A stretch of DNA of 64,000 bases. It comes from Gemmatimonadales bacterium. Lineage in GTDB: Bacteria; Gemmatimonadota; Gemmatimonadetes; Palauibacterales; Palauibacteraceae. The stretch's first letter is position 1; each line of letters begins with the position of its first letter. The stretch is from positions 1 to 64,000 of the forward strand of contig VXOJ01000049.1 in the NCBI GenBank assembly GCA_009840115.1. The letters are read 5' to 3'. Below, piece by piece: positions 5,776 to 57,900 of this stretch. The notes beneath the pieces were generated by a model. That model did no database searches. It was not told where the DNA came from and saw only the letters and a program-made list of their open reading frames with translations. Made by a program: the position numbers and the translations under genes.

Positions 5776-6345
5776 TCAGGGGTCCGGCCACACGGCCGGG
5801 TCCCGCTCCATCTCGGGCTCCGGTTCGACGCCGAGCGCCTCGACCATGCGCACGTAGTAGTTGAAGAAGCCGACGACCTCCGTCGCGGTCAGAATCTGCG
5901 CGTCGGTCCAGCCGACCTCCCGCAACCCGTCGATGTCCCGCCGAGCCGTGGAGGCCGGCTCGCGCGTGATCGCCACCGCATAGTCCATCAGCCGGCGTGT
6001 CTTCGCATCGAGTCCCGCCGTCCGATAGTCGCTCCGGATCGCGCGGGCCAGGTCATCGTCCCCGGTGGCCTGACGGAGATCCTCTCCGTGCGCCTCCGTT
6101 CAGTAGAAGCAGTCGAGTTCGCGCGAGGTCACAGTCGCGAGCATCTCGCGCACGTCCCGCCCCAGCGGTCCCGGCGCCAGCATCAACGTCTCGTAGAGCC
6201 GGATGGAGGCACGCATGACGGGCGGGTTCAGGCTCTGAATGCCGATCACGTTGAAGACGCGCCCCGCGCGGCGGACGGCCTTTTCGTATTCGCGGGCGAC
6301 GAGCCCGTCCGCTTCGTCGGGATCTACCGTCTCGATATGCGGCAT
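5776..6345 (-). CDS. AhpD-like peroxidase-related selenoprotein (UGA = Sec82)
   Basis: Reading through one in-frame TGA (6102-6100) gives a complete 189-residue carboxymuconolactone decarboxylase/AhpD-fold protein. GGAGG lies 5 nt before its ATG. The N-terminal half ends ...TVTSRELDCFY and the continuation is TEAHGEDLRQATG, so the TGA falls exactly at the second active-site cysteine of the family motif CxxCxxxH, making C79-x2-U82-x3-H86. The rest (RLMDYAVAITREP, FFNYYVRMVEALG) matches the TIGR01926-type peroxidase-related enzymes. These act on peroxides through a thiol (here selenol) relay. A SECIS-like hairpin follows the UGA. A random nonsense mutation at precisely this residue, with an intact frame on both sides, is improbable. 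Termination would yield only an 81-residue fragment lacking the active site. Confidence 0.9.
6073..6089 (-). promoter_or_regulatory. Putative bacterial SECIS hairpin after UGA of the AhpD-like gene
   Basis: On the minus strand the mRNA contains ACGGAGA-GGA-UCUCCGU, a perfect 7-bp stem with loop GGA. The loop begins 17 nt after the UGA. Bacterial SECIS elements recognised by SelB are stem-loops starting immediately 3' of the UGA, with the apical loop about 16-37 nt downstream and a G among its first two bases; both conditions hold. The hairpin lies inside the coding sequence. Confidence 0.75.
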
Positions 6346-54281: not shown

Positions 54282-54486
54282 GAGAGGTACATCCTTCCGA
54301 ATGGGTCCATCACGGTGAAACAAACCCCTGCACATCCTTTCACAACACACCTGAGTGAATCTCCGTTCAGTCACCCACGGGGTCAACGGCGCGCCGTGCT
54401 GGCGGACGCGGTCCGATGGCCCGGATCAATCCGGGTTCGATGTGCATTCGTTTGGATGGAAGCGACCCGTGCGTTACGGTTGGGAA

Positions 54487-55938
54487 ATGGAACACACTCC
54501 GCTCCCGCAGGAGGGATTCGCGGTCGTCGTGAAGCGCGACTGCCCAACGTGTCGGCTGGTGGAACCGGTGCTCGAGCGGCTCGCCGATGGGCCCGGCGGT
54601 CTCGTGGTTCTCAGCCAGGACGACCCGGACTTTCCCGAGGCGCTCTCCGGCGTGGTGGACGACACGGAACTCGAACACTCTTTCCGCCTCGGGATCGAGA
54701 CGGTTCCCACGCTCGTGCGCTTCGAGGACGAGAAGGAGACCGGCCGCGCGTTGGGCTGGAACCGGGCGGAATGGCGCGACCTCACGTCGATTCCGGACCT
54801 GGGCGCGGAACTGCCCGAGTTCCAGCCGGGCTGCGGTTCCCGGTCCGTCGAACCCGGCGCGGCGGAGCGCCTGCGGGCGCGCTTCGGGGAGACCGGCATC
54901 GAAGCGCGGCAGGTGGCGCTGGAACCGCACGCCGACGCCCTGGAGGCCTGTTTCGAGCGCGGGTGGACGGACGGGCTTCCCGTCGTGCCGCCGACCCCGG
55001 AGCGGATCCTGCGCATGCTCGCGGGCACGCCCCGGGCGCCGGATGAGGTCGTGGGCGCCGTGCCGCCGGACTACGCGGAGTGCACGGTCGAGAAGGTCGC
55101 GATCAACGCCGTGCTCGCGGGCTGCAAACCGGAGTACATGCCCGTCGTGCTCGCGGCGCTCGAGGCGGCGCTCGACCCCGACTTCACGCTGCACGGGATC
55201 CTGTGCAGCACATGCTTCACCGCGCCCCTCGTCATCGTCAACGGCCCCATCGCCCGCCGCATCGGGATGAACGCGGGGCTGAACGTCCTCGGCCAGGGGA
55301 ACCGCGCCAACGCGACCATCGGGCGCGCGCTCAACCTCATCGTGCGCAACGTGGGCGGCGGACGGCCCGGCGAGATCGACCGCTCGACCTTCGGGGCGCC
55401 CAGCAAGTACACGTTCTGTTTCGCGGAGGACGAATCGGACGAGGAGTGGGAGCCGCTCTCGGTGTCGCGCGGCGTTCCTCCCGGCGTCAGCGCCGTCACG
55501 CTCTTCCAGGGCGAGGGCGTGCAGGGGATCATGGACCAGCGCTCGCGCACGCCGGAGGAGCTGACCGCGTCGCTGGCGGCGTGCCTGCTGGCCGTCTGCC
55601 ACCCGAAGATCTGCGAGTGGGCGCACGCGGTGCTCCTCCTCTCGCCCGAGCACTACGGCATCTACCGGGAAGCGGGCTGGGACCGGGCGCGAATCGTCGA
55701 GGCGCTGCTCGAGGCGACGACGCGGCCGCTGAGCGAGGTGGCGCGCGGCGCGGGAGGCCTGGCCGAGGGCGTGCCGGACTCGGAGACGCGCCGCCATGTG
55801 CCCAAGTTCCCGCCCGGGGGACTGCTCCTCGCCCGGGCCGGCGGCGCGGCCGGACTGTACTCCGCGATCCTGGCCGGCTGGCCCGGCGGCCGCGCCTGGC
55901 AGCACTCACACCCCATCACCCGAGAGATCGAGACATGA
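54487..55938 (+). CDS. Thioredoxin-fold protein with large C-terminal Cys-containing domain
   Basis: This protein of about 483 residues has an N-terminal thioredoxin-like domain with C19-P-T-C22 in VKRDCPTCRLVEPVL and a cis-Pro-like TVPTLVRFED. A ~330-residue domain of unknown function follows, with CKPEYMPVVLAALEAAL, LHGILCSTCFTAP (a second CxxC), NLIVRNVGGGRPG and CLLAVCHPKICEW. Neighbours of UGSC selenoproteins that I recall often include a similar long protein. Its stop overlaps the selenoprotein start (ATGA), so the two are translated together, probably as redox partners. Confidence 0.83.
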   Translation: MEHTPLPQEGFAVVVKRDCPTCRLVEPVLERLADGPGGLVVLSQDDPDFPEALSGVVDDTELEHSFRLGIETVPTLVRFEDEKETGRALGWNRAEWRDLTSIPDLGAELPEFQPGCGSRSVEPGAAERLRARFGETGIEARQVALEPHADALEACFERGWTDGLPVVPPTPERILRMLAGTPRAPDEVVGAVPPDYAECTVEKVAINAVLAGCKPEYMPVVLAALEAALDPDFTLHGILCSTCFTAPLVIVNGPIARRIGMNAGLNVLGQGNRANATIGRALNLIVRNVGGGRPGEIDRSTFGAPSKYTFCFAEDESDEEWEPLSVSRGVPPGVSAVTLFQGEGVQGIMDQRSRTPEELTASLAACLLAVCHPKICEWAHAVLLLSPEHYGIYREAGWDRARIVEALLEATTRPLSEVARGAGGLAEGVPDSETRRHVPKFPPGGLLLARAGGAAGLYSAILAGWPGGRAWQHSHPITREIET

Positions 55939-56489
55939 CCGCTTCGACCGCGCCGAGTCCGGCAGCGCCGGCGACCGTCCTGCACGACCCCACCTCGGAA
56001 CTCGCCCCGGAGATGCGCCCGCGGCGGGCGCCTCCTCCGTCGCTCGAAGGACGGGTCGTCGCGCTCCAGGGGATCGGCAAGCTGCGCAGCGACGAGTTCC
56101 TCGACCACGTGAAGACGCGGCTGGATGCGCTCGGCATCGCGACGATCCGCACGGACAAGCCGACCAACGCACGTCGGGCCCCGACCGAGTTGCTGCAGAG
56201 GATCGCCACGGAAGCCGATGTCGTCGTGCAGGCCTTAGCCGATTGAGGGTCCTGCACGTCGTGCGGTCTGCACGACCTCAGAGACCTCGACGAACGCGGG
56301 ATCCCGGGCTGCTTCGTCGTCACGACCGAGTTCGAGCAGGCCGCGCGCAGCCAGTCACGCACGCTCGGCTTCGAGCCCGGCATCGTCTGGGTCCCGCACC
56401 CCATCCAGAACCGCACCGCCGGCGAACTCGAGGCGCTGGCGGACGAGGCGATCGACCCGATCCTGGCCATGATCACGGCACCGGATTGA
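55935..56489 (+). CDS. UGSC-family selenoprotein (UGA = Sec104)
   Basis: Reading through the in-frame TGA at 56244-56246 gives a 184-residue protein. The first 103 residues end ...RIATEADVVVQALAD and the continuation is GSCTSCGLHDLRDLDERG, so the UGA makes the U-G-S-C motif that names the UGSC (seleno)protein family; a further CxxC follows. The C-terminal half (IPGCFVVTTEFEQAARSQ, LEALADEAIDPIL) is in the same frame and ends normally. The start overlaps the thioredoxin-fold gene by ATGA. A perfect hairpin with loop GGUCU follows the UGA. Family members are predicted thiol/selenol oxidoreductases; the precise reaction is unknown. Without readthrough the protein would lose its putative active site. 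Confidence 0.92.
56258..56276 (+). promoter_or_regulatory. Putative bacterial SECIS hairpin after UGA of the UGSC gene
   Basis: GUCGUGC-GGUCU-GCACGAC is a perfect 7-bp stem with a GG-starting loop beginning 18 nt after the UGA. From memory, the apical loop of the E. coli fdhF SECIS is also GGUCU, the part contacted by SelB. Placement and loop satisfy the known bacterial rules. Confidence 0.85.
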
Positions 56490-56592: not shown

Positions 56593-57900
56593 ATGCCCAC
56601 CCGCCGACGATTCCTCGCCCGCCTTGGGGGCTCCGCCGCAGCCGCGGGGGCCATGACCGTCGTTCCCACGAAGTGGAGCACCGCGGTCGCGGCGGCCCGC
56701 GACCTGTCCCGTACCCCCGGCTCCCCCGAGGAGATCGCGCGGGACGAGGAGTTCTGGATCGAGATCCAGAAGGCGTTCACCACCGACCGTTCCCTCGTCA
56801 ACCTCAACAACGGGGGCGTGAGTCCGACGCCCGCCCACGTGCTCGAGGCGATGAAGCGGGACCTCGATTTCGCGAACCAGATCCCGGTCTACAACGGGTG
56901 GCAGATCCTGGAGCCCCAGCGGGAGGGCGTCCGCGCCCGGCTCGCCCGGCAGTGGGACGTGGACCCGGAGGAGGTCGCGATCACGCGCAACGCGTCGGAA
57001 GGCCTCCAGATCCTCCAGAACGGGTACGACCTCGAACGCGGCGACGAAGTCGTGACGACGACCCAGGACTACGGGCGCATGATCACGACCTTCCAGCAGC
57101 GCGAGCGCCGCGAGGGGATCGTGATGAAGCAGTTCAAGATCCCGGTCCCGGCCGAGGATCCAGCCGAAATCGTGCGGCTGTTCGAGGAGCAGATCACCGA
57201 CCGTACGCGGCTCATCCTGATGTGCCACATGATCAACATCACGGGGCAGATCCTTCCCGTGCGCGAGGTCGTCGAGATGGCGCGCGGCTACGACATCCCG
57301 GTCCTCGTCGACGGCGCGCACTCGCTCGCGCACCATGACTTTACGCTCTCCGAGCTCAACTGCGACAACTACGCCGTCAGCCTGCACAAGTGGCTGCACG
57401 CCCCGGTCGGAACCGGCCTCCTCTACGTGAGGCGGGAGAAGATCCCCGAGATCTGGCCGCTGCAGGCCGCGGCCGAGAGCCGCGACGACGACATCCGGAA
57501 GTTCGAGGCGATCGGCACGCACCCGGAGGCCAACTTCCTCGCCATCGGCGAAGCGCTCACCTTCCACCAGCTCGTCGGCGGCGAGCGCAAGGAGGCGCGC
57601 CTCGTCCACCTGCGGAACTACTGGGCCGAGCAGCTGCTCGAGCACGACCGCGTGCGGCTCAACACGAGCCTCAAGCCGGGCTTCGCGTGCGGGATCGCCA
57701 ACGTCCAGGTCGAGGGCATCGACACGAGCGCGCTCCGAAACTGGCTGTGGAACCAGCACCGGATCTTCACGGTCGCGATCAACCACGCCGAGTTCACGGG
57801 GCTCCGCATCTCGCCGTCCACCTACACGACGCTCGAGGAACTCGACCGCTTCGTGGACGCGATGACCCGCGCGGTGAAGCACGGCATCCCCGCCTCATGA
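56593..57900 (+). CDS. Class V PLP aminotransferase/isopenicillin-N-epimerase-like, Tat-exported
   Basis: This protein of about 435 residues has AGGAGG 4 nt before its ATG. The N-terminus has a twin-arginine signal (TRRRFLARLGG, then a hydrophobic stretch), so it should be folded with PLP in the cytoplasm and exported. The class V fold shows LNNGGVSPTP, ITRNASEGLQI, VDGAHSLAHHDF and the Schiff-base lysine K266 in SLHKWLHAPVG. Relatives are isopenicillin N epimerase-like and cysteine desulfurase-like proteins; the substrate is unknown. It overlaps the GcvT-like gene by ATGA. Confidence 0.88.
   Translation: MPTRRRFLARLGGSAAAAGAMTVVPTKWSTAVAAARDLSRTPGSPEEIARDEEFWIEIQKAFTTDRSLVNLNNGGVSPTPAHVLEAMKRDLDFANQIPVYNGWQILEPQREGVRARLARQWDVDPEEVAITRNASEGLQILQNGYDLERGDEVVTTTQDYGRMITTFQQRERREGIVMKQFKIPVPAEDPAEIVRLFEEQITDRTRLILMCHMINITGQILPVREVVEMARGYDIPVLVDGAHSLAHHDFTLSELNCDNYAVSLHKWLHAPVGTGLLYVRREKIPEIWPLQAAAESRDDDIRKFEAIGTHPEANFLAIGEALTFHQLVGGERKEARLVHLRNYWAEQLLEHDRVRLNTSLKPGFACGIANVQVEGIDTSALRNWLWNQHRIFTVAINHAEFTGLRISPSTYTTLEELDRFVDAMTRAVKHGIPAS

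Follow-up and report, generated by a model that had tools for sequence, protein, structure and literature searches.

The UGSC family of selenoproteins was described in 2008 or earlier and is the fifth most numerous selenoprotein family in the Global Ocean Sampling (GOS) data, with 255 genes carrying selenocysteine (Sec) and 21 carrying Cys (PMC2398784). The GOS authors also observed a fusion of UGSC to a protein termed Unknown_1 (PMC2398784), and a thioredoxin-like fold was suggested for UGSC in 2008. A 2026 review lists UGSC among the selenoproteins with largely uncharacterised functions (PMC13188914). The gene examined here, at positions 55935-56489 on the + strand, belongs to this family and lies in a 64,000-nucleotide stretch of DNA, hereafter the window, from contig VXOJ01000049.1 of a Gemmatimonadales bacterium. 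It directly follows a partner gene encoding a thioredoxin-like (Trx) domain and a C-terminal domain (C-domain). Among the other described systems with which it is compared are the glycine reductases and their relatives, for which the clostridial gene order is trxB-trxA-grdE-grdA-grdB. Electrons in glycine reductase pass from NADPH through thioredoxin reductase, thioredoxin and GrdA to GrdB (PMC3091704). The selenoprotein itself is a Gemmatimonadota member of a known family; the new part is the conserved system around UGSC. The best overall explanation is that the gene encodes a selenoprotein which probably forms the selenium subunit of a two-component, Trx-driven reductase. A link of the form trxB-trxA-C-domain-UGSC was not found in the passages available of PMC2398784, PMC13188914, PMC9312934, PMC9402790, PMC5330540, PMC5029168 and PMC7539508.

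The reading frame of the window gene runs from the ATG at 55935 to the TGA at 56487-56489 and is continuous apart from the TGA at 56244-56246. Translation of this TGA as Sec gives a protein of 184 amino acids with Sec at residue 104 (Sec104) in the motif ADUGSCTSCGLHD. An earlier reading made without database searches (the sequence-only reading) had claimed this continuous 184-residue frame, with the TGA creating a U-G-S-C motif, and had assigned the protein to the UGSC family. The sequence and translation bear out the first claim and a hidden Markov model search the second, the protein matching Pfam PF24696 (UGSC) with 114.6 bits over residues 16-181 (gathering score 25), though with C replacing Sec it scored 117.3 bits against the NCBIfam equivalog NF041046 (UGSC_fam), 7.7 below the cut-off of 125. 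The window protein is therefore filed under PF24696 and outside the curated equivalog. It has in common with the described family (PF24696, NF041046 and the GOS 'UGSC-containing protein') the sequence family, the UGSC motif, the exchange of Sec and Cys and a hairpin of bacterial type. Its clade differs in reading UGSCTSCGLHD, in having the loop GGUCU where AGUNU is commoner and in the score below the NF041046 cut-off.

Given that UGA is normally a stop codon, the TGA at 56244 might be a true stop, with the downstream frame either decayed or a separately started gene. Genome-wide absence of selB and selC, which the sequence-only reading had named as evidence against Sec, was not observed: the source genome (98% complete) has selA (489.7 bits), selB (370.8 bits) and selD (369.1 bits) together with selC (77.9 bits over cut-off; tRNA-SeC with anticodon tca by ARAGORN). 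The selD gene of this genome (L020, G000:C63:5-922, - strand) has an internal TGA, read by eye in the stretch GAGUACKLG, and is thus a selenoprotein gene itself. Across the phylum, selA was found in 282 of 395 Gemmatimonadota genomes; among the 48 genomes whose UGSC match is full, 45 have it and G275, G334 and G377 lack it. Pfam-based searching of the 395 genomes gave 51 UGSC matches in 49 genomes, each with one internal TGA, the match in G327 being weak and partial; the window gene has one internal TGA in its own-genome match as well, and for the window and 30 loci of the phylum the TGA was read at the AD-x-GSC site. A TGA was also present at the Sec site of all 80 loci kept from GTDB genomes (80 kept of at least 577 relatives), a count biased by a scan pattern that required A-D before Sec, whereas the Pfam-based phylum count is without such bias. 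The two sets share a few genomes.

A hairpin resembling a selenocysteine insertion sequence (SECIS) lies behind the TGA at 56258-56276 on the + strand. Its arms, GTCGTGC (56258-56264) and GCACGAC (56270-56276), enclose the loop GGTCT, in RNA GGUCU (56265-56269), with 18 nt between UGA and loop. A small apical loop containing G, closely behind the UGA, is what a bacterial selenoprotein gene would be expected to show. The sequence-only reading had described precisely this perfect 7-bp stem and loop, and the description is correct. Of the 1,174 TGA trinucleotides on both strands of the window, only TGA 56244 has at least seven Watson-Crick pairs and a 5-nt loop at 18-nt spacing, and it alone has at least five pairs closing an RGUNU loop at that spacing; under a looser SECIS-like definition 14 of them qualify (1.2%). 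When the TGAs are filtered for third-base composition of coding type to either side, two remain in the 64 kb, 56244 and, in an AhpD-like gene on the minus strand, 6102. Scanned against Rfam at gathering thresholds, the window gave no match. The further claim that the loop is like that of E. coli fdhF stands in part: the letters GGUCU and the 18-nt spacing agree with fdhF, whereas the bulged U of the fdhF stem is absent from the window stem and the loop of the family as a whole is RGUNU.

Folding energy and stem length are the caveats on this hairpin. Free folding of the window 60 nt favours another structure (z -1.82, with 9 of 200 shuffles equally stable), a point in favour of a true stop, and the window stem length compared with synonymous recoding gave p ∼0.07, marginal when taken alone. 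Over 110 Sec genes, stem length and folding energy were only mildly better than in synonymous recodings (median p 0.07, mean z -1.08). Folding-energy z-scores are weak and were not used as proof. The weight of the hairpin evidence is put on conservation in the family. The 110 genes comprise the window gene, 30 Gemmatimonadota loci and 79 other loci; 66 are distinct over the first 33 nt and many are related. All 110 have RGUNU at position 18 and five closing pairs (Watson-Crick or G-U), the loop being AGUUU in 52, GGUCU in 22, AGUGU in 18, AGUAU in 16 and AGUCU in 2. Pair 14/26 varies between G-C, G-U and A-U, and pair 17/23 changes from C-G to G-C in L023, L193 and L196, in each of which TGC has become TGG and the codon preceding the His codon ends in C. 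Of the 66 distinct sequences, 65 have TGC as the second Cys codon of the motif (the remaining one has TGG) and 40 have TGC as the first (Fisher p 1.4e-9, with sequences that are not independent). The RGUNU loop is absent from all seven Cys genes read, two of which retain a stem and in which the residues at that place differ too.

The sequence-only reading had also proposed comparison with Cys-containing homologues, and alignment does place Cys at the position of window Sec104. Two of these Cys forms are in one Streptosporangiaceae genome, alongside a Sec copy, and others are on plasmids of Natrinema, Roseovarius, Arthrobacter, Halorientalis and Neorhizobium. All seven Cys forms read G-D or G-H before the Cys and hence fall outside the A-D scan pattern, so the count of 80 out of 80 is uninformative on the share of Cys forms. 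With TGA read as C, neither the Sec column nor the GSC behind it varies among the 41 Sec sequences aligned. Taken with the family match, the selA, selB, selC and selD genes and the conserved SECIS features, this exchange of Sec and Cys indicates that the window gene almost certainly encodes a genuine selenoprotein, into which the source organism would insert Sec. A true stop at 56244 is barely credible against the same exchange in distant homologues, the complete Sec machinery, the conserved SECIS features and the recurrence of the TGA in both genome sets.

Two further observations concern Sec copies elsewhere. On a conjugative IncP plasmid of Acidovorax sp. T1 (L196, 5923-6213 and beyond) a Sec UGSC gene is annotated as a 96-amino-acid hypothetical protein ending at the TGA, while the frame and a SECIS-like hairpin run on past this annotated stop. 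The Tectomicrobia genome G411, which contains L154, gave eight UGSC match rows, seven of them with a TGA, and two of the rows resemble one split gene.

The partner gene lies at 54487-55938 on the + strand and encodes 483 amino acids from its likely ATG (the frame is open from a GTG at 54355). It was identified from the list of open reading frames and from its co-occurrence and adjacency in the phylum. The stop codon of this gene and the start codon of UGSC overlap in the letters ATGA. The thioredoxin-like domain covers approximately residues 10-102 (54514-54792, +). It contains C19-P-T-C22, has profile matches to ResA and thioredoxins, and aligns by VIA-align with thioredoxin 3e3e over 86 residues (Z 9.9, root-mean-square deviation 1.9). 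The C-domain covers approximately residues 126-483 (54862-55935, +), as defined by alignment A3 of 37 sequences. Over some 350 residues C213, H236-G237, N252-G253-P254, R273 and P387-E388-H389 are invariant in these 37. The window partner matched no Pfam family at E≤0.1, and in the 37 members the recurring Pfam matches were thioredoxin and redoxin models, the C-domain being without a Pfam family.

The pairing of the two genes is nearly constant. When the weak UGSC match in G327 and the Trx-only partner matches in G095 and G167 are left out, UGSC is present in 48 and the partner in 48 of the 395 Gemmatimonadota genomes, with both in 47 (either in 49). The partner is directly upstream on the same strand for 45 of 50 UGSC matches in the phylum; the exceptions are G053, G377 and one of two copies in G275, where the partner is on another contig, G235, where it is downstream, and G239, where none was found. 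The partner also lies upstream of UGSC at 65 of the 80 GTDB loci, and in 57 of these 65 a Trx domain can be detected in it; the 15 loci without an upstream partner are, by their titles, Poribacteria. In a separate set of ten loci from eight genomes (L184-L193) the C-domain was found within 1.5-kb flanks in nine, the exception again being from Poribacteria. UGSC and the C-domain together range from haloarchaea to Gemmatimonadota and occur in Sec and Cys forms. The UGSC/Unknown_1 fusion of the GOS survey (PMC2398784), in which UGSC is joined to a conserved domain without a name, is possibly the same pairing. A Neorhizobium plasmid gene starts as such a fusion.

The partner was modelled with a predicted local distance difference test (pLDDT) of 88.6. 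In a different division of labour the C-domain would itself be an enzyme, such as a hydratase, lyase or hydrolase, and UGSC and Trx would be a redox pair for its maturation or repair. Foldseek found a weak likeness of the partner to class I fumarate hydratase and cyclic amide hydrolases, the best E being 8e-5, and the invariant C213, H236 and R273 would suit an enzyme. The template modelling (TM) scores of these matches are low (0.14-0.25), however, and K49, K75, D103, D114 and H155, invariant beside the Sec site among 41 UGSC sequences, seem to be more than a plain reductant would need. This division of labour is quite improbable. The VIA-align list for the whole partner was filled by matches to its Trx domain.

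Further indications of the role of UGSC came from the GrdB and PrdB selenoproteins. When the UGSC profile was compared by hhalign with a GrdB/PrdB-like profile made from 12 Gemmatimonadota proteins, a probability of 88 (E 3e-6) was obtained with Sec aligned on Sec and the next Cys also aligned. The later HP region was aligned as well, though HP itself is not conserved. As controls, 40 column shuffles gave at most 8.5, the reversed profile 1.2 and UGSC against the partner Trx domain 0.3. A protein of the GrdB-like set, L163, compared alone with UGSC gave a probability of 85 over 29 columns, while 40 residue shuffles of L163 gave at most 0.9. L163 is a TIGR01918 selenoprotein B (449.7 bits, cut-off 65), falls below the narrower GrdF, GrdB and GrdH cut-offs and reads UGSCNRCG at its own TGA. 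The likeness of UGSC to GrdB, GrdF and PrdB (PF07355, TIGR01918) thus lies in the UxxC Sec site and ∼30 surrounding residues. Both groups are also connected to a thioredoxin system, by genes in some UGSC loci and by biochemistry in glycine reductase. In contrast, UGSC is much shorter, has no Pfam or NCBIfam match to that group and has a partner that is unlike GrdE in one test. Kinship of UGSC with GrdB is suggested by these profile comparisons, without UGSC being filed under PF07355.

In one Gemmatimonadota genome (G145:C75) a selenoprotein-B gene adjoins a GrdE-like gene (L163 and L183), the latter being the sole match to the GrdE family (PF09338) in 200 genomes. Small stand-alone PrdB/GrdB-like proteins (L164-L176) were present in 13 of 200 Gemmatimonadota genomes, their TGA lying in motifs like PVUPMC. 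No GRDB or PF09338 match was found in the source genome (G000).

The fold of UGSC was modelled from 41 sequences with a pLDDT of 94.6. Strands and helices alternate in the model, five of each, and Sec104 lies between strand 96-102 and helix 105-120. The best Foldseek rows, all with TM scores below 0.5, were folds of TIR, FMN-reductase, NanR and flavodoxin type; the best 50 VIA-align rows had Z of 9-11.5 and were, by reading, mostly CheY/Rossmann-like. A PDB sequence search with UGSC gave chance-level matches only. These results bear on the possibility that UGSC works on thiols in general, as a peroxidase or disulfide oxidoreductase of thioredoxin or peroxiredoxin type, and serves no metabolic substrate in particular. 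The UxxC motif is of redox type, and peroxidase activity of GrdB is reported in the title of a cited reference. The predicted fold, in which beta-alpha is repeated five times, is nevertheless of flavodoxin/CheY type, and thioredoxin was not among the best 50 Foldseek or best 50 VIA-align rows, an absence which excludes no fold. The profile of UGSC, as noted, does not resemble that of the partner Trx domain. The constant pairing with the C-domain, and the transporters and CoA transferases adjoining several plasmid copies, also speak against a general thiol enzyme, which we regard as unlikely. Profile comparison of UGSC with the two domains of its own partner gave probabilities of only 0.3 (Trx domain) and 0.2 (C-domain).

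The thioredoxin reductase gene trxB is found beside some copies of UGSC. In ten plasmid loci fetched, of 14 records, the C-domain adjoins or is fused to UGSC in all ten and trxB is in the stretch in four. The gene order is trxB-trxA-C-domain-UGSC in Arthrobacter, C-domain-UGSC-trxB in Roseovarius and trxB, two genes, C-domain-UGSC in Variovorax, while in Neorhizobium UGSC is joined to the start of the C-domain with a trxB-like stretch behind. On the Neorhizobium galegae plasmid (L198, 5917-8533) the C-domain is split over two frames and the trxB-like stretch lies in two frames; this region looks decayed. Neighbours on the plasmids include coenzyme A (CoA) transferases, CoA-ester lyases and TRAP and tricarboxylate transporters, which point to organic-acid catabolism.

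Several results must be set against a Trx-driven reductase related to GrdB. No trxB match was found in the window, and of the 80 GTDB loci only three (L122, L139 and L151) have trxB in the neighbourhood of UGSC, in each case on the opposite strand. Poribacteria keep the C-domain apart from UGSC and without Trx; it was found elsewhere in 11 of 11 genomes tested, in open frames of 315-335 amino acids. The catabolic genes adjacent to UGSC vary, so that no substrate is inferred from them. The GrdB-like profile reaches a probability of 34 against the partner Trx domain, which indicates that a shared Cys motif alone can raise such scores. The GrdB signal comes from ∼30 residues round Sec and largely from the single protein L163, and when L163 is removed the profile, then consisting of small PrdB-like proteins, drops to a probability of 5. 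The window UGSC did not match PF07355 (GRDB), PF24696 being the only family listed at E up to 10 with HMMER filters that drop most matches above 0.1, and PF07355 was not among the eight families listed for UGSC set A1 at E≤1. As the PF07355 model ends just before Sec it could hardly match UGSC, and this comparison tests little. Neither NCBIfam selenoprotein-B model (TIGR01917, TIGR01918) was matched at E≤0.001, NF041046 being the only match. The C-domain gave a probability of 0.4 against one GrdE-like sequence and 1.3 against one GrdB-like sequence, and searching the PDB by sequence gave no structure of GrdB.

In the making of the selenoprotein, SelB bound to the hairpin after the UGA would insert Sec104. 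With the above points in mind a mechanism for the two-component reductase can also be proposed, for which belief and doubt are evenly balanced. UGSC would be the selenium-bearing catalytic subunit of the Trx-driven enzyme that it would form with its partner. Sec104, at the start of its helix, would attack a substrate that the C-domain binds or activates, and Cys107 would then close a Se-S bond with Sec104. This bond would be reduced by thioredoxin, which in the window is a domain of the partner and in Arthrobacter the product of a separate trxA beside trxB, with electrons passing from NADPH to TrxB and on to the partner Trx. UGSC would work like component B of the glycine, sarcosine, betaine and D-proline reductases, the electron path of glycine reductase and the clostridial gene order serving as the model.

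Other genes of the window and of related loci were also considered. The sequence-only reading had called the UGSC gene a second independent selenoprotein case in the 64 kb. The other is presumably the AhpD/peroxidase-related gene at 5776-6345 (- strand), whose TGA at 6100-6102, in the motif CFYUT, is the other one kept by the composition filter. The AhpD-like protein scores above the cut-off of TIGR01926 (128.8 bits against 81.8) and below that of NF041238 (44.8 bits against 175), and a 6-bp stem with a loop AGGAU beginning 16 nt after the TGA was read by eye. Behind UGSC lies a class V aminotransferase gene (56593-57900), whose annotated start, MPTRRRFLARLGG, is twin-arginine-like by eye. Among 61 loci taken with flanks of 1.5 kb, such a gene is present behind UGSC in 15; two of these are the window's own, and some genomes are counted twice. 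From 57900 onward there is a gene similar to DMSP demethylase and GcvT (385.7 bits, cut-off 410). Clustering of neighbours over the 80 loci and the window gave, besides the partner and antisense open reading frames, SDR, acyl-CoA dehydrogenase, MFS and TauD-like genes, none of which occurs in more than 20 loci; these names were assigned by reading the sequences and not by search.

It is possible, and we put it forward tentatively, that UGSC and the C-domain make up a widespread family of two-component reductases that is driven by Trx and has so far escaped recognition. In organisms other than anaerobic fermenters of amino acids, this family would correspond to the Stickland (glycine/proline) reductases, and it would cleave or reduce a small organic acid before its CoA-dependent catabolism. 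The near-constant partner, the Trx genes beside some copies, the plasmid Cys forms in cultured bacteria and archaea and the GrdB-like Sec site make the function of UGSC concretely testable.

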